Positions 23,428-52,320 of a DNA stretch of 64,000 nucleotides are shown piece by piece. Numbering within the stretch: position 1 is the stretch's first letter; every line of letters begins with the position of its first letter. Source of the DNA: Streptomyces flavotricini (GTDB taxonomy: Bacteria; Actinomycetota; Actinomycetes; Streptomycetales; Streptomycetaceae); contig NZ_JAINUL010000001.1 in the NCBI RefSeq assembly GCF_020639365.1, positions 1,477,344-1,541,343 on the forward strand. The letters are read 5' to 3'. Made by a program: the position numbers and the translations under genes. Below the pieces are notes generated by a model. It saw only the letters and a list, made by a program, of their open reading frames with translations. It was not told the DNA's origin and did not search any database.

Positions 23428-24909
23428 TTAGCGCTGCCGCGTCAGCAGACCCGGCCGGTAGGGCCATTGGCCGTAGTCGCCGCCGATGTTGGGGTTGCGT
23501 CCCTGGTAGAGGAATTGCAGGTTGCAGGGATCGACGGTGAAGGTCTGATCGGCGCTGGTACGGATCAGTTCGCCATGGCTGATGTCGTTGGTCCAGGTGG
23601 CGCCACTGTTGGCCTTGCCGGCGAAGGGGTTGCTCTCGGTCGCTGCCTGAGGTGCCCATGAGCCGTTCAGACTGGTGGCCGTGAACGAGCGGAAGTAGCG
23701 GCCCTGCGCGCCGACCGCCTCGACGATCATGAGGTAGCGGTCCTGGCCCTGGAGCTTGTAGACCTGAGGCGCTTCGAACAGGTTGTTCGTCGTATCGGTC
23801 ATGATCGTTGTGTAGGTCGAGCCGAAACTGCTCGGGAAGTTCCCGATCGGCATGCTGGCCCGGTAGATCTTGCCGTTGTCGCCGGCGAAGAACAGGTACA
23901 TGTTCGTGCCGTCAGCGATGAGCGTCTGATCGATGGGACCTGTTCCGGAGCCGGTGATGCTTCCGGAGAAGAGCACCTGCTGCGATGACCAGCCATTGGG
24001 GTCGGAGGGGTCGCTCGACGTCCGGTAGGAGAAGGCTCCCCCACCCCCCCACTGGTAGGCGAGCACCCAGATGTTCTTCGGCGCGAAGTAGAAGAGCGTG
24101 GGCGCGACGGCGGAGTTCGGCATCGTGTTCTGGCTGGCCGAGGCCATATCGGACCAGTTGGTGAACGGGCCGAAGTTCATCGAGCCCCAGCCCGAGTCCG
24201 GTCCCGAGCCGTGCGTCGTCGCATAGACGAGCTGCTTGCCGTTGTAGGGGGCGACGGTGAAGTCCTTGAGCGAGGCCCACCCGGCCTTGGGCTGCGCCAG
24301 CGCGCCCGTGGAGGTCCAGCGGTACGCCGACGGAAGATCACACGTGCCAGGGTTGCCGGCGCCGACCGGGACGAGCTGCCACTGCTGGTTGGTGCCGCCC
24401 CAGTCGTCGTACTGGACGATGTTCGCGTTGTCGGCGGTGGAGGCGCCTTGGACTTCGAGGGCCTTGTTGCTGTGGCGCGCGATGAACCTCACGTAGCCGT
24501 CCGAGCTGTCGGCCAGCCGCCACTGCTGGTTGGTGCCGTTCACGTCGGTCCACTGGACGATCGAGGCGCCGTTGGCGGCGGACCGGCCGGAGACGTCCAG
24601 CACCTTGCCGGAGTGGCGGGACTTGATGCGGTAGTAACCGTCTCCGGAGTCGACGAACTGCCACAGCTGCTGGTTCTGATCGTTCCTGGTCCACTGGGTG
24701 ATGCGCGCGCCGTCGTTGGTCGCCAGGTTGTAGACGTCCAGGGCCTTACCGCTGTTGCGGTTGACCAGCGCGTACGAGGCGTTGGGGTCGACGGTCGCCG
24801 CGGAGGCGGCGACGGCGGGCTGGGTACCGAGGAGAGCAGCCCCGAGCAACAGGGACGAAAGGACCGCGAGTACGAGTCTCAGGACCCGTGGCGGATGGCG
24901 AAACCACAT
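23428..24909 (-). CDS. Secreted GH62 alpha-L-arabinofuranosidase with N-terminal CBM13
   Basis: A 493-residue protein. A signal peptide (about 1-38) is followed by a CBM13 ricin-type lectin domain with three QxW repeats (QQLW, QQWR, QQWQ; about 40-182). The GH62 five-bladed propeller runs from about 190. Probable catalytic residues are the base D216 (LKDFTVAP), D327 (GPIDQTL) and the acid E379 (LFEAPQVY). The enzyme removes arabinose side chains from arabinoxylan outside the cell. It lies 61 bases after the truncated GH30 gene at the 3' end of the xylo-oligosaccharide importer operon. An AraR-type operator 565 bases upstream may give it separate control by arabinose. Confidence 0.93.
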
Positions 24910-24970
24910 CAGAAGAGCTCCTTTGGGGGGCGGGGGTGAGGTGACCCCGACGAACCGCCGAGCGGCCGCG

Positions 24971-25522
24971 TCAGGGGGTCAGGGACGGGATGGGTGTGAA
25001 GGCGGCCGCACATGCCGAAGCGTTGGTGCTCCGGGCGCTCCAGTCGTGACACTTCGCCGTGGTCCAGGTGAGAGAGGTCTCCGGCCTCCAGGCGTCGGCG
25101 AAGAACCGTTTGACGCCGTAGGCCTTGGCCTCCGTGGCGAGCCGGACCTGGCCACCGGCCCATCCGTCCCAGACGTACTTCGGCGTGGCGTCCGGCCCGC
25201 CGGGATCGGCCGGCAGGATCGTCGGCATGTGGTCGTAGACCCTGTCGGTCGACGCCCCGATGCCCGGGCGCAGGATCGAAAGGCCTGCGCCCTTGTCCTT
25301 GCTGAGCAGCAGGTCGAGGACTTCGCGCTGCTTGGCCGGGCTGAGGCCGCGCGCGCCGTGCAGCAGGTCGGCCCGCTGGAAGGCCATCGAGAAGCCGAAT
25401 CCGTCTATGGGCTGGAGCGCTGTGCGGAAGTCGATGCCGCTGCCGCTTCGCGCGGGGGCGGCCACGGCCTGCGATGTTAGCGCTAACAAAATGGGGACCG
25501 CCAATGCGATCAGGCGCTTCAC
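24971..25522 (-). pseudogene. Truncated GH30 xylanase/glucanase (N-terminal fragment)
   Basis: A 183-codon frame with a GTG start and AGGAG six bases before it. It begins with a signal peptide and continues as a GH30 N-terminus: DFRTALQPIDGFGFSMAFQR, then LLSKDKGAGLSILRPGIGAS, then YGVKRFFADAW near residue 142. The expected SAPGYMKTN continuation is replaced by about 40 unrelated residues (PETSLTWTTAKCHDWSARS onward) before the stop. Both catalytic glutamates of the family lie in the missing part, so it cannot be an active hydrolase. Codon 13 is the rare TTA, created by the operator embedded in the signal peptide. Confidence 0.8.
25475..25488. promoter_or_regulatory. AraR-type LacI operator inside the GH30 fragment
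   Basis: TGTTAGCGCTAACA is a perfect 14-base palindrome. It is the same motif as the arabinose-module operators at 41096, 48653 and 48892. It overlaps codons 12-16 of the GH30 fragment. Read towards GH62, it offers TAACAT as a -10 and TTGGCG 19 bases before as a weak -35. Confidence 0.75.
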
Positions 25523-25558
25523 AATGTCTCCTCGGGGGTGGAGGTCGCGCGGGACGGC

Positions 25559-26389
25559 TCAGCCCTTGGACGCGCCCGCGGTGAGGCCGCCGATCAACTG
25601 CCGCTCGGCGACGGCGTAGAACGCGAGGGCGGGGACCATGGCGAGCACGATGTAGGCGAGGACGAGCGCATAGTCGGTCGAGTACTGGCCCTGGAACTGC
25701 TGGACGCCGACCGGGATCGTCTGCCATTTCGGGTCGTTGAACACCAGCAGCGGCAGGAAGAAATTGTTCCAGCTCGCGACGATCGCCAGCACCGACACCG
25801 TACCGAGCGCCGGACGCGCCATCGGCAGCAGGATCTTCCAGAAGAAGCGGAACTTGCCGCAGCCGTCCATGATGGCCGCCTCCTCGACCTCCGCCGGGAT
25901 GGTCCGGAAGAAACCGCGCAGGATGATGATCGTCATGGGGAGCCCGAAGGCCGCCTGCGGGAGGATCACACCGAGCGGGTTGTCGAGCAGGTCGAAGTTG
26001 CGCAGCAGCAGGAACAACGGCAGGACGGCCACCGCGAACGGGAACATCAGCCCGATCGTGAACAGCGTGTAGAACAGCTCCCTGCCCCGGAAGGCGTAGC
26101 GCGCCAGGACGAACGCCGCCATCGCGGACGCCGCCACCGTGCAGCACGTCGTGCCGATCGCGATGCCCGCGCTGTTGGCGATCTGCCGCCAGAACATACC
26201 GTCGCCGAGAATGCCGGTGTAGTTGCCGGTCTTCCAGTGCTCGGGCACCCCGAACGGGTTGGTCGTCAGCTCGCCGGTGCTCTTGAACCCGGAGATCACC
26301 GCGTAGACCAGCGGCACGACGACGAACGCGCCGATCAGCCAGACCACGGCGTGCAGCGACAGGCCGCGTGCCGTCCTGCGGGCGTTCAT
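25559..26389 (-). CDS. Xylo-oligosaccharide ABC importer, permease 2 (MalG type)
   Basis: A 276-residue permease with six membrane spans. The EAA loop that contacts the ATPase is visible as EVEEAAIMDGCGKFRFFWKI. It overlaps the upstream permease by ATGA and lies 36 bases before the GH30 fragment. It is a CUT1-type component and resembles BxlG of the Streptomyces xylobiose system in layout. The substrate assignment rests on the neighbouring XynR, GH3, GH43 and shared operator. Confidence 0.88.
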   Translation of the reverse strand: MNARRTARGLSLHAVVWLIGAFVVVPLVYAVISGFKSTGELTTNPFGVPEHWKTGNYTGILGDGMFWRQIANSAGIAIGTTCCTVAASAMAAFVLARYAFRGRELFYTLFTIGLMFPFAVAVLPLFLLLRNFDLLDNPLGVILPQAAFGLPMTIIILRGFFRTIPAEVEEAAIMDGCGKFRFFWKILLPMARPALGTVSVLAIVASWNNFFLPLLVFNDPKWQTIPVGVQQFQGQYSTDYALVLAYIVLAMVPALAFYAVAERQLIGGLTAGASKG

Positions 26390-27363
26390 CGGCCACCTCC
26401 CGAGGTGACGGCCCCGCTCAGGTCACGGCGGAGCACGTAACGCTGGTAGAAGAGGGAGAAGACCAGACTGATCATGAAAAGCACCACGCTGATCGCACTG
26501 GCATAGCCGACCTGGTAGCGCTTGAACCCGAACTGGAACATCGAGATCGCCATCGTCTCGGAGGAGTGGTTGGGCCCGCCCGCCGTCATGACCCACACCA
26601 GGTCGAAGAGCTGGATGGCCCCGACGACCGAAAGAAAGGCGCTGATCCGGATCGTCGGGCCGAGCAGCGGAAGCGTCACGTGCCGGAAGCGCTGCCACAC
26701 GCCGGCGCCGTCGATGGAGGCGGCCTCGAGGATCTCGCCCGGGATGCTCTGCAGTCCGGCGAGGAAGAGCATCATGTGGAAGCCGAAGTACTTCCAGGTC
26801 ATGACCACGAACAGGGTCGGCATGACGGTCGAGGGATCGGCCAGCCACGTGCCCTGCAGCCCCTCCAGGCCGAGGGCGCCGGCGAGATGGTCGGCCATGC
26901 CGGCACCGGGAAGGAAGATCATCGTGAAGAGGACCGCCGTGACCACCTCGGACAGGATGTACGGCGCGAAGAACAGCATCCGGTAGACGGCCCGGCCGCG
27001 CAGCCGCTGGTTGAGCAGGACCGCGGTGAACAGCGCGAACGGCAACTGCACCGTGATCGACAGGGCGATCAGGTACAGCCCGCGCTCCAGATCGCCGAGG
27101 AAGACCTGATCGTCGAACAGCTTGGCGTAGTTCTCGAAGCCGACGAAGTCGTCCATGGGGCCGGTCCCGCCCCACTTGAAGAAGCCTGTGCAGACGGCGA
27201 CGGCGATCGGGGCGAGGACGAAGACGAGGAAGAGGACCAGAGCCGGGAGGAGGAACCAGGCGACCGACGCCCAGCTTCCCCATCCGTGCAGGAGCGACCG
27301 TACCGGGGCGGGCGGGCCCACCGGCAGGGCGCCCTGCCTCCGCTCCTTGGTCAGCGTGGACAC
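26386..27363 (-). CDS. Xylo-oligosaccharide ABC importer, permease 1 (MalF type)
   Basis: A 325-residue permease from the GTG at 27361-27363, which lies four bases after the binding-protein stop. An upstream extension of the frame would run deep into that gene. It has six to seven membrane spans and an EAA loop (GEILEAASIDGAGVWQRFRH). It forms the channel with the next permease. No ATPase gene is present in the operon, so a shared ATPase such as MsiK is expected. Confidence 0.88.
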   Translation of the reverse strand: MSTLTKERRQGALPVGPPAPVRSLLHGWGSWASVAWFLLPALVLFLVFVLAPIAVAVCTGFFKWGGTGPMDDFVGFENYAKLFDDQVFLGDLERGLYLIALSITVQLPFALFTAVLLNQRLRGRAVYRMLFFAPYILSEVVTAVLFTMIFLPGAGMADHLAGALGLEGLQGTWLADPSTVMPTLFVVMTWKYFGFHMMLFLAGLQSIPGEILEAASIDGAGVWQRFRHVTLPLLGPTIRISAFLSVVGAIQLFDLVWVMTAGGPNHSSETMAISMFQFGFKRYQVGYASAISVVLFMISLVFSLFYQRYVLRRDLSGAVTSGGGR

Positions 27364-27367
27364 GGAG

Positions 27368-28660
27368 CTAGGCACCCTTCGCAGCCTCGGTGATCGACTT
27401 GGTGACCTGCTCGGGCGTCTTCTTGCCCGCGATGAGGTCGGCGACGCTGTCGTTGACCTCCTGGCCGACCGCCGGCGGGTAGGCCTGGTCGAGGAAGAGC
27501 TGGAAGCCCGTCGCCTTGACCAGGCTGTCGGCCACCACCTTTCTGTTGGCGTCGGTGAGCTGGCTCTCCGCGCCCCTGACCACCGGCAGGTAGCCATTGG
27601 AGGCCAGCAGCTTGGACTCGTTCTCCAGCACGAAGAACTTCAGGAAGTCCAGCGCCTCCTTCGGCGCGCCCTTGCGCAGCGCGAAACCGCCGCCACCGCC
27701 GAACACCTCGGTGACCTGGCCGACGCCGCCGTCGACCGTCGGGAAGGGGAAGAAGCCCAGGTCCGCTCCGAGGTCGGCGCCCGCGTCCTTCTGCACCGAC
27801 GGTGCCCACTGCCCCATCAGCTCCATGGCGGCCTTGCCGTTGCCCATGGTCGCGGCCTGGCCGCCGGGGGAGGAGTAGCCGGCGCCGAGGAAGCCCGTCT
27901 GGAAGGGCTGGAGGTCGACCAGCTCCTTGAGGTGGGTGCCCGCCTGGACGAAGCCGGCGCCGGTGAAGTCCTTGGTGGTCGCGGCCTGCTGCAGCGCGGG
28001 GAGGCCCGCGACGCGCATCGCGAGGTAGGCCCAGTAGTAGTGGCCCGGCCATTTCTCCTTGCCCGCGAGGGCGATCGGGGTGATGCCCGCGGCCTTGAGC
28101 TTCTTGACGTCTTCGAGAAGCTCGGCCCAGGTGGCCGGCGGGGCGGTGATCCCGGCATCGGCGAAGAGTTTCTTGTTGTACCAGAAGCCGACCATGCCGA
28201 TGTCGTAGGGCACCCCGTAGGTCCGGCCCTCGAACTGATAGGCCTGCAGCGAGACCGGGGTGAGGTCGGACGACCAGCCGAACGCCTCGGTGAGGTCCTC
28301 GACCAGCCCCGCATCGACCTGCTGCCGCAAAACGCCGCCACCCCAGGTCTGGAAGACGTCGGGGAGCTTGCCCGACGAAGTGTTGGCCGTCAGCTTGGAC
28401 TTGAACGCCTCGTTCTCCAACGAGGTCGTCTTGATGGTGATGTTCGGGCGAGCGGCCGTGAACGCCGAGGAGATCTGCGGGAACAGGGACTTGCCCGGTT
28501 CCGTCGTGGCGATGTTCCACCACACGAAGGTCACCTTGCCGTCAGCCGTCGGCCCCGAGCCGGAGTCCCCGCCGCCGCAGGCCGCGGTCAGCGAGACGGA
28601 CAGAACGGTCAGGCCCGAGAGCGCGAGGAAGCTTCGTCGACTCGGGGGTGTGCTGGCCAT
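27368..28660 (-). CDS. Xylo-oligosaccharide ABC importer, lipoprotein binding protein
   Basis: A 430-residue family 1 extracellular binding protein. The signal has a twin-arginine motif (SRRSFLALSG) and a lipobox ending at C28 (SLTAAC). It is therefore probably a Tat-exported, membrane-anchored lipoprotein. The ATG at 28658-28660 follows GGAGG. It is the first gene of a minus-strand operon with two permeases, the GH30 fragment and GH62. The promoter and a CGAAA-N3-TTTCG operator lie just upstream, opposite xynR. Ligand specificity for xylobiose-like sugars is inferred. Confidence 0.88.
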   Translation of the reverse strand: MASTPPSRRSFLALSGLTVLSVSLTAACGGGDSGSGPTADGKVTFVWWNIATTEPGKSLFPQISSAFTAARPNITIKTTSLENEAFKSKLTANTSSGKLPDVFQTWGGGVLRQQVDAGLVEDLTEAFGWSSDLTPVSLQAYQFEGRTYGVPYDIGMVGFWYNKKLFADAGITAPPATWAELLEDVKKLKAAGITPIALAGKEKWPGHYYWAYLAMRVAGLPALQQAATTKDFTGAGFVQAGTHLKELVDLQPFQTGFLGAGYSSPGGQAATMGNGKAAMELMGQWAPSVQKDAGADLGADLGFFPFPTVDGGVGQVTEVFGGGGGFALRKGAPKEALDFLKFFVLENESKLLASNGYLPVVRGAESQLTDANRKVVADSLVKATGFQLFLDQAYPPAVGQEVNDSVADLIAGKKTPEQVTKSITEAAKGA

Positions 28661-28694
28661 GGGACCTCCGGGGTGGGGAATGCCGGTTCGAGTT

Positions 28695-28707
28695 CGAAAA
28701 TGTTTCG
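28695..28707. promoter_or_regulatory. XynR-type operator upstream of the importer operon
   Basis: CGAAA-ATG-TTTCG has the same 5-3-5 architecture as two sites upstream of the GH10 xylanase gene. It lies downstream of the importer promoter and 35 bases before the start codon. The flanking TTCGAG (28687-28692) and CTCGAA (28715-28720) form an outer inverted repeat. Confidence 0.7.
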
Positions 28708-28733
28708 TAACATTCTCGAATTCGTGCTGCCAC

Positions 28734-28762
28734 AAACTAGGAACGTAGAGCCCACCGGTCAA
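28734..28762 (-). promoter_or_regulatory. Promoter of the xylo-oligosaccharide importer operon
   Basis: On the minus strand, TTGACC (28757-28762) and TAGTTT (28734-28739) are separated by 17 bases. Transcription would begin just before the CGAAA-N3-TTTCG operator, consistent with repression. Confidence 0.6.
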
Positions 28763-28849: not shown

Positions 28850-28891
28850 ATACCTGTCACTGGCCCAAGGCGTCCGCGCGGAGGAGAGAAG

Positions 28892-29905
28892 TTGAGCGAG
28901 CAGCGCCCGACCCTGGCCGTCATCGCCGCTGAGGCAGGGGTCTCCCAGGCCACCGTGTCCAAGGTGGTCAACGGCCGCTCCGACGTCGCACCCGCGACAC
29001 GCGAACGGATCGAGAGCCTGCTGCGCTCCCACAACTACCTCCACCCCGGCGCGCAGGCCAGGGCCCGCAGGTCCGGCCTGGTAGACCTGATCATCGGCGG
29101 CCTGGACAGCGCGTGGGCAGTGGAGATACTGCGCGGCGTCGAGGCCGAGTGCGCCCAGCGGAGCGTCGGCACCGTCGTGTCGCTCGTCCCGCCGGGCGAG
29201 GCCACACCTTCGAGCTGGGCCGCACTGCCGGTCCTGCACCACAGCGACGGCGTCATCCTCGTCACCGCCTCGGTCACCCAGGCCCAGCGCGCCCAGGTCG
29301 AACAGGCCGGGGTGGCACTCGTCGTCATCGACCCGATCGACCTGCCGGGCAACGGTGTGCCGAGCATCGGCGCGACCAACTGGGCCGGCGGCCTCGCCGC
29401 CACCGAGCACCTGCTGGAGCTGGGGCACCGCCGGATCGCCGCGATCGGCGGGCGCAAGGAGATGCTCTGCAGCCAGGCCCGCATCGACGGGTACCGCGCC
29501 GCGCTGGAGCGGGCCGGGATCGAGGTCGACCGCGACCTGATCCGGTTCGGCGACTTCCAGCACGAGGGCGGGTTCCAGCGCGCCCGGGAACTGCTCGCCC
29601 TCCCCGATCCGCCGACCGCCATCTTCGCCGGCAGCGACCAGCAGGCGATGGGCGTCTACGAAGCCGCCCGGCAGGGCGGACTGAGCATCCCGCAGGACCT
29701 CAGCGTGGTCGGCTTCGACGACCTGCCTATGTGCGAATGGCTGTCCCCGCCGCTGACGACCGTGCGCCAGCCGCTGGAGGAGATGGGCCGGCTCGCCGCC
29801 CGCACGCTCTTCCAGCTCCTGGACGGCCAGCCCCTGGTCAGCCCCCGGATGGAGCTCTCGACCGAGCTCAAGGTCCGGCTCTCCACCGCCCCGCCCCGTT
29901 CCTAG
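28892..29905 (+). CDS. xynR: LacI-family regulator of xylan utilisation
   Basis: A 337-residue protein from the TTG at 28892, which has GGAGGAG just upstream; no ATG or GTG fits better. The HTH covers residues 8-27 (LAVIAAEAGVSQATVSKVVN). The sugar-binding core ends with VVGFDDLPMCEWLSPPLTTV. It is divergent from the importer operon and upstream of GH3 and GH43. The recognition helix TVSKVV differs from the TVSR type of AraR and CebR, and the putative operator here has a three-base spacer with no central CG. The stop codon TAG lies inside the left end of a MITE-like element. The symbol follows function, as published names differ (for example BxlR). Confidence 0.85.
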   Translation: MSEQRPTLAVIAAEAGVSQATVSKVVNGRSDVAPATRERIESLLRSHNYLHPGAQARARRSGLVDLIIGGLDSAWAVEILRGVEAECAQRSVGTVVSLVPPGEATPSSWAALPVLHHSDGVILVTASVTQAQRAQVEQAGVALVVIDPIDLPGNGVPSIGATNWAGGLAATEHLLELGHRRIAAIGGRKEMLCSQARIDGYRAALERAGIEVDRDLIRFGDFQHEGGFQRARELLALPDPPTAIFAGSDQQAMGVYEAARQGGLSIPQDLSVVGFDDLPMCEWLSPPLTTVRQPLEEMGRLAARTLFQLLDGQPLVSPRMELSTELKVRLSTAPPRS

Positions 29906-40196: not shown

Positions 40197-40934
40197 TCAG
40201 ACACCCGGGGGGTGAGGGGCGTTGCCGTAATAGGCGTCCGGTCCGTGCTTGCGGGTGAAGTGCCGCTCCAGCAGATGCCTCGGCGGTTCGGAGGTGTCTC
40301 CGAGGCGGGAGCCCAGCGCCAGCGTGTGCAGCGCCATCTCCGCCACGGCCTCGCAGACGATGGCGTTCTCCAGCGCAGCAGTCGCGGTGGCGCCCCAGGT
40401 GAAGGGGCCGTGCCGTGAGACGAGCGCTCCGGGAACCTCGTCGGCCCGACGGGGGTCGCCGTCGAGCCGGGCAACGATCACCTGGCCGGTGTTGTACTCG
40501 TAGTCCTGCGCGCACTGCTCGGCGGTGAGGTCCGCCGTCACGGGGACGGGCCCGTTGAAGGTATCGGCGTGTGTGGTGCCGAGCACGGGGATCGGGCGGC
40601 GCGCCTGGGCGAAGGCGACGGCGTGCGCCGAGTGCGTGTGGGTGACGCCGCCGATGGAGGGGAAGGCCCGGTAGAGGCACCGGTGGGTCTCGGTGTCGGT
40701 GGACGGCCTGAGGTGTCCACCGACGACCCGTCCGTCCTCCAGCGCCACCACCACCAGGTCCTCCTCGGTGAGGTCGGCATAGGAGACCCCGGACGGCTTG
40801 ATGACGAAGACGCCGGCGTCTCGATCCACGCCACTGACGTTTCCCCAGGTGAGGGTGGCCAGACCGGCTTCCGGGATGCGCAGGTTGGCCGCGAGGACCT
40901 CGCGACGGAGGTCCTTGAGAATGGTCTCGCTCAC
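40197..40934 (-). CDS. araD: L-ribulose-5-phosphate 4-epimerase
   Basis: A 245-residue class II aldolase-like enzyme from the GTG at 40932-40934. Key features are TWGNVSGVDR, the KPSGVSY phosphate loop, the zinc ligands in THTHSAHAVAFAQ and a C-terminal histidine in SRHGPFTWG. It converts L-ribulose 5-phosphate to D-xylulose 5-phosphate, the last step of arabinose entry to the pentose phosphate pathway. It is divergent from araR, with an AraR operator in its promoter. The open frame continues 59 codons upstream, but that part would cover the promoter. Confidence 0.92.
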   Translation of the reverse strand: MSETILKDLRREVLAANLRIPEAGLATLTWGNVSGVDRDAGVFVIKPSGVSYADLTEEDLVVVALEDGRVVGGHLRPSTDTETHRCLYRAFPSIGGVTHTHSAHAVAFAQARRPIPVLGTTHADTFNGPVPVTADLTAEQCAQDYEYNTGQVIVARLDGDPRRADEVPGALVSRHGPFTWGATATAALENAIVCEAVAEMALHTLALGSRLGDTSEPPRHLLERHFTRKHGPDAYYGNAPHPPGV

Positions 40935-41095
40935 TACGCTCTCACCGTCTGTCTGACATGCGCGGCGGTTTCTCTGGACCGGCGTCCCGCCGGCCCGGCA
41001 GTCGCGCATGAGCGGGCTGGACTGACCGGGGGCCGCACCAGGCATCGCGGCTGCGCTGTCGCAGCTCTCCCACTCACCCAGCCACCCCGACCGAA

Positions 41096-41124
41096 TTGTT
41101 AACGCTAACAAGCGGTAATCTCAA
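41096..41124 (-). promoter_or_regulatory. araD promoter with AraR operator
   Basis: TTGAGA (41119-41124) and TAACAA (41096-41101) on the minus strand are 17 bases apart. The operator TTGTTAACGCTAACAA (41096-41111) covers the -10 and half the spacer. The same layout recurs at 48653-48681. Confidence 0.75.
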
Positions 41125-41187: not shown

Positions 41188-41271
41188 TCGATACCTGATC
41201 GACAAACTCCCGGTTGGTCCGAGATGTGTGCGGGCCGTGGCTGATTCGGTACCTTGAGGGAAGGCCGCTCG

Positions 41272-42348
41272 ATGAGGAAAGGAAGAGACTTGACCCAGCT
41301 CCCAGACGTCTCGCGAGCGCCCACCATGACGGACGTCGCACGTGTTGCCGGCGTGTCCCATCAGACCGTTTCGCGGGTGCTCAGCGACCACCCGAACGTC
41401 AGCGCCAAGACCCGGGCCGCCGTGACACAAGTCATCGAGCAGCTGGGGTACCGCCGCAACTCGGCGGCCCGGGCCCTGGCCACTCGCCGGACCCACACGC
41501 TGGGCGTCATCGCGGTGAACACCACTCTGCACGGTCCCGCCAGCACCGTGGCGGGAGTTCAGGAGGCGGCTCGGGACCGCGGCTATCTGACGTCTGCCGT
41601 CACGCTCCGGACAGCCACGCAGACGGCCCTCGCCGAAGCCATGCAGCACCTCGCCGGGTGGGGCGTGGAGGGGATCGTCGCCGTCACTCCCCAACGCGCC
41701 GCGGTGAGGGCCCTGGCGGCATTGGAAGCACCGTGCCCGGTGGTCACCGTGGAAGGCGGCCACACCCTAGACCTGCCGGGGGTGTCGCTGGACCAGAGCC
41801 TCGGCGCTCGCATGATCACGGAGCATCTTCTCGCCTCGGGCCACGCCACCGTGTGGCATGTCGCAGGCCCTCCCGACTGGCTCGAGAGCGAGGCCCGCAC
41901 CCAGGGTTGGGAGGACGCGCTACGAGATGCCGGCGCCGAGGTGCCGCCCGTGCTGCGCGGCGACTGGAGTCCGCTGTCGGGATACCAGGCCGGCCAGCAG
42001 CTCGCGGGTCGGTTCCGGACGTCGCGAGGGCGGGGAACGGGCCTCACCGCGGTGTTCGTCGCGAACGACCAGATGGCCCTCGGTGTCCTACGGGCCTTGC
42101 GGGAGGCGGGCCTGCACACGCCGGAGGACGTGGCGGTCGCCGGCTTCGACGACATCCCCGAGGCCGAGTTCTTCCCGCCCCCGCTGACGACGATCCGTCA
42201 GGACTTCGCCTCGATCGGCCGCGACAGCATCGGGCTGCTCCTGGACCACATCGAAGGCCGGACCGACGAGTCGACGCACCTGGTGGTGGCGCCGGAGCTC
42301 ATCGTGCGCGCCAGCACGGCCCGCAGGATCGCTCCCCCCGGCACATGA
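41272..42348 (+). CDS. araR: LacI-family regulator of arabinose utilisation
   Basis: A 358-residue protein from the ATG at 41272 with GGGAAGG upstream; a TTG at 41254 is a less likely start. The HTH covers residues 18-38 (TMTDVARVAGVSHQTVSRVL). The effector domain ends AVAGFDDIPEAEFFPPPLTT. It is divergent from araD, and four TTGTTAGCGCTAACAA-like sites in the window fall at arabinose genes and at GH62. This is a LacI-type AraR, unlike the AraC-type of E. coli or the GntR-type of Bacillus. The inducer, probably arabinose or an oligomer, is inferred. Confidence 0.85.
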   Translation: MRKGRDLTQLPDVSRAPTMTDVARVAGVSHQTVSRVLSDHPNVSAKTRAAVTQVIEQLGYRRNSAARALATRRTHTLGVIAVNTTLHGPASTVAGVQEAARDRGYLTSAVTLRTATQTALAEAMQHLAGWGVEGIVAVTPQRAAVRALAALEAPCPVVTVEGGHTLDLPGVSLDQSLGARMITEHLLASGHATVWHVAGPPDWLESEARTQGWEDALRDAGAEVPPVLRGDWSPLSGYQAGQQLAGRFRTSRGRGTGLTAVFVANDQMALGVLRALREAGLHTPEDVAVAGFDDIPEAEFFPPPLTTIRQDFASIGRDSIGLLLDHIEGRTDESTHLVVAPELIVRASTARRIAPPGT

Positions 42349-47495: not shown

Positions 47496-48491
47496 TCAGT
47501 AGTTCCGGGACGGCAGCGCGGCCGCGGCCTTGTCCTGCGGGAAGACACCCTCCTGGGTCTCGATGCGAGGCGGCACGTCTTCTCCTGCCGCGACCTTCTT
47601 GGTCAGCTCCATCAGCTGGTCACCGAGCATCGGGTTGCACTCCACCACGACGTTGATCTTGCCCTCGGTCATCGCGACGAAGGCGTCCTTGATCCCGTCC
47701 ACCGAGATCACCTTGATGTCCGTACCGGGCTTCTTGCCGGACTCCTCGATGGCCTGGATGGCGCCGAGGGCCATGTCGTCGTTGTGGGCGTAGAGGACGT
47801 CGATGTCCTTCTGGGACTTCAGGAACGCCTGCATGACCTCCTTGCCCTTGGCGCGGGTGAAGTCGCCCGTCTGCGAGGCGACGATCTTGAACTTGCCGTC
47901 GGCGCGGATGGCGTCGGCGAAGCCGGCCTTGCGGTCGTTGGCGGGTGCGGAGCCCGTGGTGCCCTGGAGCTCGACGATGTTGACCGGGCCCTGCTCGTTC
48001 GCATAGGCGGCGGTCAGCCACTCCCCCGCGGACTTGCCCTCCTTGACGAAGTCCGAGCCCAGGAAGGTCTTGTAGAGGGAGGTGTCCTTGGTGTCCACAG
48101 CGCGGTCGGTGAGGATGACCGGGATGCCCGCGTCCTTGGCCTCCTTCAGCACCGTGTCCCAACCGGACTCCACGACCGGCGAGAAGGCGATGACGTCGAC
48201 CTTCTGCTGGATGAAGTTGCGGATCGCCTTGATCTGGTTCTCCTGCTTCTGCTGCGCGTCGGAGAACTTGAGGGTGATCCCGGCCTTCTTCGCCGCCTCC
48301 TGGACGGACTTGGTGTTGGCGGTGCGCCAACCGCTCTCGGCGCCGACCTGGGCGAAGCCGAGCGTGATCGTCTTGCCGGATCCCGCCTTGGCTTCGGAGG
48401 GGGAGCTGGAGGCGGGGCTGCTGGTCGAGCAGGCGGTCGACGAGGAGGCGAGAAGGGCGGCAGTGAGGACGAGAACTGCTCTGCGAGCCAT
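47496..48491 (-). CDS. Arabinose ABC importer, periplasmic-type binding lipoprotein
   Basis: A 331-residue protein with a lipobox at C21 (STAC) and a Peripla_BP_4 fold (TLGFAQVGAESGWRTANTKS, AFSPVVESGWDTVLKEAKDA, VISVDGIKDAF). It is close to YtfQ-type proteins in layout. The start is the ATG at 48489-48491. It is the first gene of the importer operon, behind a promoter whose -10 lies inside an AraR operator. Confidence 0.9.
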   Translation of the reverse strand: MARRAVLVLTAALLASSSTACSTSSPASSSPSEAKAGSGKTITLGFAQVGAESGWRTANTKSVQEAAKKAGITLKFSDAQQKQENQIKAIRNFIQQKVDVIAFSPVVESGWDTVLKEAKDAGIPVILTDRAVDTKDTSLYKTFLGSDFVKEGKSAGEWLTAAYANEQGPVNIVELQGTTGSAPANDRKAGFADAIRADGKFKIVASQTGDFTRAKGKEVMQAFLKSQKDIDVLYAHNDDMALGAIQAIEESGKKPGTDIKVISVDGIKDAFVAMTEGKINVVVECNPMLGDQLMELTKKVAAGEDVPPRIETQEGVFPQDKAAAALPSRNY

Positions 48492-48652
48492 GTCGAGTGT
48501 CCTTTCAGGGGGTACGGGAAGAGGCGCCGCACGGCCGGGGCCGGGCTTTGCCCACCAGGAGCCCCAGGAGTGCCGCGCGGTGCACGACGGCCGGGGGTGG
48601 CCGCGTCCGGGTCGGCGGGAGAGGGACCCCCTTGAGAGGGGGCACCGTGGCA

Positions 48653-48681
48653 TTGTGAGCGCTAACAAGCCAGGTTCTCAA
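48653..48681 (-). promoter_or_regulatory. Arabinose importer promoter with AraR operator
   Basis: On the minus strand, TTGAGA (48676-48681) and TCACAA (48653-48658) are 17 bases apart. The operator TTGTGAGCGCTAACAA (48653-48668) covers the -10. The geometry is identical to the araD promoter. Confidence 0.75.
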
Positions 48682-48878: not shown

Positions 48879-48907
48879 TTGCCCATCGACATTGTTAGCG
48901 CTCACAA
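48879..48907 (+). promoter_or_regulatory. araB promoter with AraR operator
   Basis: TTGCCC (48879-48884) and TCACAA (48902-48907) are 17 bases apart. The operator TTGTTAGCGCTCACAA occupies 48892-48907, again covering the -10. The divergent importer promoter is about 200 bases away. Confidence 0.72.
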
Positions 48908-49031: not shown

Positions 49032-50726
49032 TTGACCTCACCCCATCCCCTCGCGCCCACCCCGCATTCCGAGGAATCGGAGCAGTACACGGTCGGCGTC
49101 GACTTCGGCACGCTGTCGGGCCGCGCCGTGGTGGTGCGGGTTCGCGACGGTGAGGAGCTGGCCGCCGCGGTCCACGCCTACCGGCACGGAGTCATCGACC
49201 GGCACCTGCCGCACGGCGGTGCGCCACTGCCTCCGGACTGGGCCCTGCAACACCCCCAGGACTGGCGGGACGTACTGCGTCACGCCGTCCCGCAGGCCGT
49301 GGCGGCGGCCGGGATCGATCCCGCCGCGGTGATCGGCATCGCCACCGACTTCACCGCCTGCACCGTCCTGCCCACGCTGGCCGACGGGACCCCCCTCGCC
49401 GAGACCGAGCTCGCCGGACGGCCGCACGCGTGGCCCAAGCTCTGGAAGCACCACGCCGCCCAATCGCATGCCGACCGCATCAACGAACTCGCCCACGCCC
49501 GCGGGGAGAAATGGATCGCCCGCTACGGCGGCCGGATCTCCGCCGAGTGGCAGTTCGCGAAGGCCCTCCAGGTCCTGGAGGAGGATCCGCTCGTCTACGA
49601 AACCTGCGCACGGTGGATCGAGGCCGCCGACTGGATCGTGTGGCAGCTCACCGGAACCGAGTCCCGCAACGCCTGCACGGCCGGCTACAAGGGCATCCAC
49701 CAGGACGGCGCCTACCCGAGCGAGGAGTACCTGGCCGCGCTGAACCCCCGGTTCGCCGACTTCGCACGCACCCGCCTCGCATTCCCCCTCTCCGCGCTGG
49801 GCTCACGAGTGGGCTCGCTCAGTACCGAGGCGGCAGCGTGGACAGGGCTGCGGCCCGGCATCGCCGTGGCCGCGGGCAACGTCGACGCCCATGTCACCGC
49901 GGCGGCGGCCCAGGCCGTCGAGGACGGTCAGCTGCTCGCCATCATGGGGACCTCCACCTGCCACGTCGTGAACGCCCCCGTCCTCGCCGACGTCCCCGGC
50001 ATCTGCGGTGTCGTGGCCGGTGGGATCGTCGAGGGCACCTACGGCTACGAGGCCGGCCAGAGCGCGGTCGGCGACGTCTTCGCCTGGGTACTGGACCAAG
50101 GCGTCCCGTCGGACTACCTCACCGAGGCCGCCGACCGCGGCGAGGACCTGCACACCCTGCTGACCCGGAAAGCCGCCGGCCAGCCGGTCGGCGGACACGG
50201 ACTGGTCGCCCTCGACTGGCTGAACGGCAACCGTTCGGTCCTCGTCGACCACCACCTCTCCGGAGTCATCGTGGGCCTCACCCTCGCGACCCGTCCCGAG
50301 GACGTCTACCGCGCGCTGCTCGAAGCCACCGCGTTCGGCACCCGCGTCATCGTGGAGGCCCTGGAGGCGGGCGGCGTACCGGTGCACGAGTTCATCGTCG
50401 CCGGCGGACTGGCCAAGAACGAACTGCTGATGCAGATCTACTCCGACGTGCTGCGCCGCCCCGTCTCCCTGGCCGCGTCCGACCAGGGCCCCGCCCTCGG
50501 GTCGGCCATCCACGCCGCCGTAGCCGCCGGCGCGCACGCGGACGTACGCACGGCCACCGCCGCCATGGGCCGCCGTCTGCCCGCCGTCCACACGCCCGAC
50601 CCCTCCCGGGCCGACGCCTACGACGTCCTCTTCGCCGAATACCAGCTCCTGCACGACCACTTCGGTACCGGTGGCCTGCTGCACCGCCTGAGGAAAATCC
50701 GCGACACGACCCACACCGGGGGCTGA
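49032..50726 (+). CDS. araB: L-ribulokinase
   Basis: A 564-residue FGGY-family kinase. The N-terminal ATPase fold opens [20 protein letters not shown]. Substrate-side motifs include [20 protein letters not shown] and NACTAGYKG. The second domain has [20 protein letters not shown]. It phosphorylates L-ribulose. The likely start is the TTG at 49032 with GAAAGG eight bases upstream; the open frame extends further 5' through the repeat and promoter. It is followed by araA after 82 bases. Confidence 0.93.
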
Positions 50727-50808: not shown

Positions 50809-52320
50809 GTGCCCAGCCGAACATCTCCCGCCCAGGAAATCTGGTTCCTCACGGGCAGCCAAGGCCTGTACGGGGAGGCGACCCTGAAGCAGGTCGCCGA
50901 ACAGTCGCGGCAGATCGCCACCACCCTGGCCGACGTCCCCGGCATTCCCGCACGTGTCGTGTGGAAGCCGGTACTGACCGACGCCGATGCCATCCGCCGA
51001 GTGTGCCTCGACGCGAACGCCGAAGACCGGTGCATCGGGCTCATCGCCTGGATGCACACCTTCTCGCCGGCCAAGATGTGGATCGCCGGACTGGACGCGC
51101 TGCGCAAGCCGTTGCTGCATCTCCACACCCAGTCGAACGTGGCCCTGCCCTGGGACACCATCGACATGGACTTCATGAACCTCAACCAAGCCGCCCACGG
51201 GGACCGCGAGTTCGGCCACATCCAGGCCCGTCTCGGCGTCCCCCGCAAGACCGTGGCCGGCCACGTCACCGATCCGGTGACGACCGCACGCGTCGCGATC
51301 TGGGCGCGGGCGGCCGCCGCGCGGTCCGAACTGGCCACCCTCAAGGTCGCCCGCTTCGGCGACAACATGCGCGACGTGGCCGTCACGGAGGGCGACAAGG
51401 TCGAGGCCCAGCTGCGCTTCGGCGTATCCGTCAACACCTACGGCGTCAACGACCTGGTGGAGGTCGTCGACAGCGCGGACGAGAGCGAGGCGGCTTCCCT
51501 CGTCGAGGAGTACGCGGACCTGTACCGCCTGGCGCCGCAACTGCGACCGGGCGGCGAACGGCACGACTCGCTGCGTTACGCGGCCCGCATCGAAGCCGGC
51601 CTGCGCACCTTCCTCGAAACGGGCGGCTTCGGGGCCTTCACCACCAACTTCGAGGACCTGGGCGGACTGCGCCAGCTGCCCGGCCTGGCGGTCCAGCGGC
51701 TCATGGGCCAGGGATACGGCTTCGGAGGAGAGGGCGACTGGAAGACCGCCACCCTGCTGCGCGCCCTCAAGGTGGCCGCCACCGGACTCCCGGGCGGCAC
51801 CTCCTTCATGGAGGACTACACCTACGACATGACACCCGGCAACGAGCTCATCCTCGGCGCGCACATGCTGGAAGTCTGCCCCACCATCGCGACCGCCAGG
51901 CCCAGCTGTGAGATCCACCCCCTCGGCATCGGCGGGAGGGAGGACCCGGTGCGCCTGGTGTTCGACGCGGCCCCCGGCCCGGCCGTGGTGGTAGGGCTCG
52001 CCGACCTCGGCGACCGCTTCCGCCTGATCGCCAATGACATCGACCTGGTGGTACCCCCTCACCCGCTGCCCGCCCTGCCCGTCGCCCGCGCTGTCTGGCG
52101 GCCCAGCCCCGACCTGCGGACCTCCACCGAATCCTGGCTGACGGCCGGAGGACCGCACCACACCGTCCTCAGCACCGCCCTCACCTCCGACCACCTCGAC
52201 GACCTGGCGGAGATGCTCCGCATGGAACTCGCGCTCATCGACAAAACCACCACCCCGAAGCAGTTCCGGCGCGATCTCCGCTGGAACCAGGCGTACCACC
52301 GGCTGGCACTGGGACTGTGA
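50809..52320 (+). CDS. araA: L-arabinose isomerase
   Basis: A 503-residue enzyme of normal length. Metal and catalytic residues appear at E308 (GGEGDWKT), E335 (SFMEDYTYD) and H352 (GAHMLEVCP), matching E. coli E306, E333 and H350, with a later histidine near 453. It converts L-arabinose to L-ribulose. The start is GTG with CAGGAG upstream. It forms an operon with araB and ends before a strong bidirectional terminator. Confidence 0.95.

Follow-up and report, generated by a model that had tools for sequence, protein, structure and literature searches.

The GH30 fragment and its neighbours

The window, a stretch of 64,000 nucleotides from Streptomyces flavotricini, contains the 5' part of a GH30 gene, situated between bxl-type transport genes and a gene for a GH62 arabinofuranosidase. 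A perfect palindrome lies within the signal-peptide codons of this GH30 fragment. The features of the region are listed with their positions in the window, strand, description and evidence:

23428..24909, minus strand: GH62 arabinofuranosidase with a ricin-type lectin domain, next gene after the deletion (Pfam PF03664, E=6.6e-148)
24909..25095, minus strand: 3' end of a cupin-domain gene, fused to GH30 by a deletion of about 4.5 kb; translation from GH30 enters it in the wrong frame and stops at 24971 (homology)
25086..25522, minus strand: N-terminal ~145 codons of GH30 with GTG start, signal peptide and first part of the mature protein (93-95% identity to the intact GH30 of relative G054)
25475..25488, no strand: AraR-type operator TGTTAGCGCTAACA, a perfect 14-bp palindrome in GH30 codons 12-16 (sequence, conservation in relatives)
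25484..25486, minus strand: TTA codon 13, supplied by the operator, sole TTA in the 17 window CDSs counted (codon count)
25528..25533, minus strand: GAGGAG, GH30 ribosome binding site (sequence; conserved in an alignment of seven sequences)
25559..26389, minus strand: ABC permease, BxlG-like by synteny, ends 36 nt before GH30 (Pfam)
26386..27366, minus strand: ABC permease, BxlF-like by synteny (Pfam)
27368..28762, minus strand: sugar-binding protein, BxlE-like by synteny, first gene of the operon (Pfam)
28889..29905, plus strand: LacI-family regulator of the bxl-type cluster, BxlR-like by synteny with the cluster in the available text of PMC12772271, not AraR (Pfam, NCBIfam)

On the minus strand, TGTTAGCGCTAACA spans bases two and three of codon 12 (TTG) and then TTA GCG CTA ACA, and the peptide encoded across it is L-L-A-L-T, part of MKRLIALAVPILLALTSQAVAAP. 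An earlier note on this DNA had read the palindrome in codons 12-16 as Leu-Leu-Ala-Leu-Thr with TTA as codon 13, and both position and reading frame confirm this. The note had also described the gene as lacking its catalytic part while retaining ribosome binding site, start and signal sequence. This description holds: the GTG start codon (25520-25522, minus strand) and GAGGAG are present, and a Pfam scan of the fragment gave no match at E<=0.001; the intact GH30 proteins of two relatives (463 and 469 amino acids) match GH30 families in Pfam. Of about 460 GH30 codons, the fragment is homologous up to about codon 145, and the complete catalytic domain is absent. The operator region has kept its coding status: nearby indels across relatives come in multiples of three, and both the start and the signal-peptide pattern are retained. 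Only one TTA is found among the 8361 codons of 17 chosen window CDSs, the GH30 fragment among them, and it is the one in the operator. Just before the operator (25496-25511, minus strand) there is a terminator-like stem followed by CCCATTTTGT; shuffled sequences have a mean of 0.2 of these and its presence is possibly due to chance.

Comparison with relatives establishes the deletion: the homologies to GH30 and to the cupin-domain gene overlap at 25086-25095, and in relatives the 3' end of the cupin-domain gene is situated about 4.5 kb further on. By arithmetic on the alignments, the missing stretch measures about 4,497 bp relative to G054 and 4,525 bp relative to G046. Judged from the relatives, it contained the rest of GH30, a GH10 xylanase, a Gfo/Idh oxidoreductase, one more gene and most of the cupin-domain gene (gene content from open reading frames, with Pfam support for L037 and L038 only). 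The contig has 8.68 Mb, which places the junction away from its edges, and the deletion is seen in one strain only. It places GH62 566 bp from the operator. Downstream of the signal-peptide codons, the fragment has four unique amino-acid changes and two unique synonymous changes; the ranges for eight intact genes are 1-8 and 0-7, respectively.

Upstream of GH30, the bxl-type cluster consists of transport genes, a divergent LacI-type regulator and a GH3 gene. The permease that precedes GH30 is retained in all 35 relatives, including those that have lost the operator. An inverted repeat, TTCGAAAATGTTTCGTAACATTCTCGAA, was found by eye at 28693-28720 between the BxlR-like and the binding-protein genes and is a candidate operator of the BxlR-like regulator.

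Conservation of the operator in intact GH30 genes

A search for intact GH30 in 392 genomes of the genus returned 41 matches at E<=1e-80, 20 of which (L045-L063, L072) are at least 85% identical. The operator is exact in 10 of these 20, has one mismatch in six and two in one (L055); in the remaining three (G307, G383 and G299), no operator was found within three mismatches. A second set of 80 loci was kept from 95 relatives: the close clade (at least 81%) accounts for 27, of which 12 had already been counted. The 15 new close-clade loci comprise eight with the exact operator, four with one mismatch and three that have lost it: L146 (S. griseoluteus), L148 (S. exfoliatus) and L165 (Streptomyces sp. 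DH12). With the window included, 30 of the 36 close-clade GH30 genes have the operator (19 exact, 10 with one mismatch, one with two) and six are without it. The earlier note would have been contradicted by a palindrome absent from all close relatives; 29 of the 35 carry it with at most two mismatches. Operator positions correspond across the clade, in frame and separated by codon-sized indels: the operator starts at nt 35 in most genes, at nt 32 in four and at nt 50 in G371. As intact genes carry the operator too, it predates the break, and an origin with or after the break is ruled out. The earlier note had suggested that the sequence may persist because it carries the operator and a GH62 promoter; this finds no support in the comparison, since the operator belongs to intact genes as well and the few changes in the fragment, within the range of intact genes, point in neither direction.

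In the 53 more distant loci, no site with up to three mismatches is present within 400 nt from the start of the match. Four of the 53 have a site upstream of the match, and three of these are Microbispora with at most two mismatches: the Microbispora GH30 genes L188, L192 and L194 have a TGTTARCGCTATCA site 114-232 nt upstream of the match start, not inside. In a second GH30 group (~54% identical), a CebR-type palindrome, TGGGAGCGCTCCCA, is located 31-154 nt before the match start in 13 of the 80 loci (L200, L201, L202, L206-L212 and L214-L216); these GH30 relatives may be wired to cellobiose instead.

The palindrome at arabinose genes

Matches to the motif with up to three mismatches occur five times in the window, compared to 0.39 expected, and none of 100 shuffles reaches this number. 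Genome-wide (8.86 Mb), there are eight places with up to two mismatches, versus two for a reversed control pattern. Seven of the eight are within 52 kb (C1:1502818-1555249), a stretch that contains araA, araB, araD, a LacI-family regulator (AraR) and sugar transporters, the second transporter being recognised by reading its open reading frames only. The same palindrome is thus found at promoters of ara catabolic and transport genes. The window contains the following features of this arabinose region:

40197..40940, minus strand: araD, L-ribulose-5-phosphate 4-epimerase, start uncertain (NCBIfam search)
41097..41110, no strand: AraR site between araD and araR, TTGAGA-17-TAACAA on the minus strand (motif scan)
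41254..42348, plus strand: LacI-family regulator beside araD, AraR/AraQ type by context, recognition helix SHQTVSRVL (profile matches, helix reading)
48654..48667, no strand: AraR site at the start region of the sugar-binding protein gene 47496-48668 (motif scan)
48893..48906, no strand: AraR site upstream of araB (motif scan)
49176..50726, plus strand: araB, ribulokinase (NCBIfam search)
50809..52320, plus strand: araA, L-arabinose isomerase (NCBIfam search)

The AraR candidate matches 20 LacI-type models of NCBIfam, all below the curated cut-off, and its name is taken from context. In G054, a second GH62 gene has two AraR-type sites upstream (L035 reverse-complement 16233 and 16384), which fits GH62 as an AraR target.

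Operator, araA and AraR are lost together

We searched for araA at E<=1e-60 in 21 genomes and then in 14 further ones, which together cover five of the six operator-less genes (all but L165). In the first set, araA is present in 18 of 21 genomes and missing in exactly G299, G307 and G383; in the second, it is present in 11 of 14 and missing in the genomes of L146, L148 and L159. Of all 35 genomes, 29 have both operator and araA, five have neither, one has the operator without araA and none has araA without the operator. The sole exception, G400 (L159), is without araA but retains the operator and AraR (62-63% identical), and its AraR gene adjoins its GH62 gene, with its own site and a transporter.

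An AraR match is present in 30 of 30 operator-positive genomes, with the recognition helix SHQTVSRVL in every one that was read (22 of the 30). Four of the five operator-negative genomes have AraR-like matches at E<=1e-60, but these are only 45-50% identical and have another helix: SSQ twice in G299, SSQ in G307, SKQ once and SSQ twice in G395, and SKQ and SSQ in G393 (two of three matches). In the fifth, G383, the AraR search gave no match, and the AraR helix (SHQ) is in no protein read from the five operator-negative genomes searched. The best AraR match is just 49-52% identical in five operator-positive genomes too (G046, G209, G321, G398 and G403); these five weak-identity matches are set apart by the helix, and four of them (G046, G209, G321 and G403) are situated within 8 kb of araA.

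The number of sites follows the same pattern: each of the 18 operator-positive genomes in the first set has 6-18 TGTKARCGYTMACA sites with at most one mismatch, against 3 in G299, 2 in G307 and 1 in G383, where the remaining sites are TGTGAACGCTCACA or weaker. Exact TGTTARCGYTMACA is found in neither G393 nor G395. Fisher's test on 30/0/0/5 gives p=3e-6, with kinship ignored. On a tree (FastTree, rooted on G371), the operator was lost in three lineages, {G307, G299, L146, L148}, {G383} and {L165}, of which the first two were tested for co-loss; as G299, G307, L146 and L148 are one lineage, the independent co-losses number two.

Several further sites and regulators were seen in these genomes. 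A TGTGAACGCTCACA site persists in two AraR-losing genomes (G299:C15:547178 and G307:C1:7386819) and is also present in several others, perhaps belonging to another regulator. Two AraR-type regulators with the same helix are close together in G119 (C421:13956 and 16145) and in G402 (C135:107160 and 109638). No gene could be linked to the site C449:22661 of G119.

The regulator of the GH30 site could instead be the neighbouring BxlR-like protein (28889-29905): it is encoded by the nearest LacI-family gene, and the available text of PMC12772271 links such a regulator to this type of cluster. However, the window motif, allowing three mismatches, is found at ara and transporter genes and not between the BxlR-like and binding-protein genes, and the six operator-less genes keep their bxl-type permease, while araA and the AraR helix are missing in the five genomes searched. 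We regard ownership by the BxlR-like protein as highly improbable. The earlier note had proposed an AraR operator in signal-peptide codons. Regulon clustering, conservation and co-loss bear this out, in that TGTTAGCGCTAACA behaves as the operator of an arabinose LacI-family regulator, for which the name AraR comes from context. On this comparative evidence, the site is genuine, old within the clade and linked to AraR.

Codon choice and the TTA codon

Codon usage was tested in 140 alignment columns of 29 operator-positive genes, against the usage beyond codon 26 of the same genes; G119 was dropped because its GH30 reads as frameshifted. The six most unusual columns are the operator TTA, the CTA/CTC/TTA column, ACA, the column containing operator bases 1 and 2 (Met in the other genes, which left 17 for scoring) and one flanking column on each side. 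The GCG column of the operator is not among the top 12 outliers of the 140 columns.

The palindrome might be kept as an mRNA hairpin or for its peptide alone, and not as an operator. An mRNA stem of 5 bp with a GCGC loop can form, but its isolated stability is a mere -0.9 kcal/mol. A constraint on the peptide leaves TTA, CTA and ACA unexplained: L165, which is without the operator, gives M-L-A-L-T as CTG GCG CTG ACC. The co-loss with AraR speaks against both variants, and we give them hardly any credence.

All 29 operator-bearing genes (G119 left out) have TTA at the operator column, and in 17 operator-bearing relatives TTA within GH30 is confined to the operator (G119 read for 51 codons only). 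Of those that have lost the operator, G299, L146 and L148 keep a TTA at codon 15, while TTA is gone from the GH30 genes of G307 and G383 and absent from the first 22 codons of L165. The constancy of TTA in operator genes and its persistence at codon 15 in three of six operator-less genes could mean that TTA is the selected feature, making GH30 translation bldA-dependent, with the palindrome hitch-hiking; early TTA codons are also described for two genes of the S. scabies cellulolytic system in the available text of PMC5332605. Yet TTA is missing from GH30 in two of the other losers and from the first 22 codons in the third, and the unusual and conserved CTA and ACA of the operator are left unexplained, which makes selection on TTA a very unlikely explanation of the palindrome. 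The earlier note had stated that the operator creates the TTA codon. This stands insofar as the operator supplies the TTA of the window; the TTA is not purely operator-forced, given the codon-15 TTA of the three losers. To judge from these codon patterns, the TTA is chiefly, though not purely, a by-product of the operator.

A probable roadblock within the operon

Within GH30, the start codon precedes the site, and the gene itself is therefore repressible at the operator only by a roadblock: any transcript that includes the start codon has to be elongated through the operator. The site is probably a working AraR operator inside GH30, the first enzyme gene of an arabinoxylan-degrading half-operon, and would act as a roadblock. 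The bxl-type transporter genes upstream would be controlled by their own BxlR-like regulator and co-transcribed with GH30. Without arabinose, AraR would bind the site, which starts at nt 35 of GH30, and halt RNA polymerase arriving from the bxl promoter; as a result of this block, the transport genes would be made, and GH30 and the genes behind it would not. The gated genes would be those from GH10 to GH62 in the relatives and GH62 alone in this strain, after the deletion of about 4.5 kb. Arabinose, released by GH62, would then relieve the block.

Elsewhere, AraR sites have a different layout that counts against a roadblock: 33 of 40 other AraR sites overlap a -10 element with TTG 16-18 nt upstream, and the usual mode of AraR thus looks like promoter blocking. 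The GH30 site could likewise be part of an internal promoter, with the right half of the operator serving as -10 (TAACAT/TAACAA/TCACAT) within the signal-peptide codons; it would be AraR-repressed and drive the downstream genes (GH10 to GH62; GH62 here). The TTG before the right half is expected at 3.7% of sites, counting either strand (the 40 sites are from ten related genomes and not independent). At the GH30 site itself, a YTGAC hexamer precedes the operator in 27 of 30 operator genes, in 23 of them at 19 nt and in four at 16 nt (G046, G209, G321 and L155; TTGAC in three of these). The AraR sites at the second transporter (L042, L125 and L142) also use 16 nt, and TTG, a rare Leu codon, is found at the hexamer column in eight of 28 genes. 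However, the prevalent distance of 19 nt falls outside the 16-18 nt of the other AraR sites, the spacing is shifted by a codon-sized indel, and CTG-AC is equally ordinary Leu-Thr coding. CTGACA (codons 7-8) is kept in three of the six operator-less genes, and an early hint from this hexamer weakened once these three were added. The transcript would, moreover, begin past the GH30 start codon and be unable to express GH30.

For the window, the earlier note had named TAACAT as the -10 of a GH62 promoter. The layout at the 33 other AraR sites favours this, but the hexamer here is TTGGCG at 19 nt, and scanning 24850-25700 for sigma-70 promoters gave none. An internal promoter is possible, if doubtful, and we give more weight to the roadblock. 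That these ~24 bases are selected threefold, as signal-peptide core, as AraR operator dividing a xylan operon into one half for transport and one for arabinose-gated enzymes, and as TTA that also puts the secreted xylanolytic enzyme under developmental control by bldA, seems unlikely to us.

Comparison with known systems

In the available text of PMC4052901, less than 1% of identified LacI-family sites are in coding regions, with lacZ and purB as the demonstrated cases. Roadblocks are documented for LacI, PurR, GalR, CcpA and CodY in the available text of PMC4132739, whose reference list includes the purB roadblock. A literature search found no mention of the 14-mers, most subscription papers being outside its reach; with the same reach, none of the matches listed concerned an operator in signal-peptide codons, and nothing useful on this regulator was among the matches listed. 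Intragenic LacI-family operators are thus known but rare, and one that spells a signal peptide with a rare codon is a new form of them.

The site is a natural, replicated case of overlapping protein code and repressor code, in which losses follow the regulator, and ready-made variants exist: L165 has M-L-A-L-T in GC-rich codons and no operator. It would illustrate how placing an operator within an operon can create a two-sugar logic. It would also show that rare TTA codons of Streptomyces may in some cases be operator by-products and not signals for development.

Close parallels are PurR in purB and LacI in lacZ of E. coli, which also have a LacI-family operator within coding sequence (available text of PMC4052901). 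Unlike these, the GH30 site begins at nt 35, spells a signal peptide and would gate a distal half-operon, the proximal half being under another regulator. The CebR site listed at +1507 of an S. scabies gene is likewise a 14-bp LacI-family palindrome (of TGGGAGCGCTCCCA type) in coding sequence, but its motif and sugar differ and it is situated deep in the gene; the available text of PMC5332605 does not report the early TTA codons of the two S. scabies genes as lying within an operator. The AraQ regulons of Actinobacteria resemble the regulon described here in that a LacI-family regulator is linked to araBDA, and to a sugar ABC transporter (araFGH) in three species; unlike the GH30 site, AraQ sites are described upstream of genes, and bifidobacterial AraQ also controls central metabolism (available text of PMC5928203). 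The bxl xylo-oligosaccharide cluster of Streptomyces shares with the locus its ABC transporter genes, a beta-xylosidase gene and a LacI-type regulator; in contrast to the cluster in the available text of PMC12772271, here the genes from GH30 to GH62 follow the permeases and the AraR site divides the two halves.
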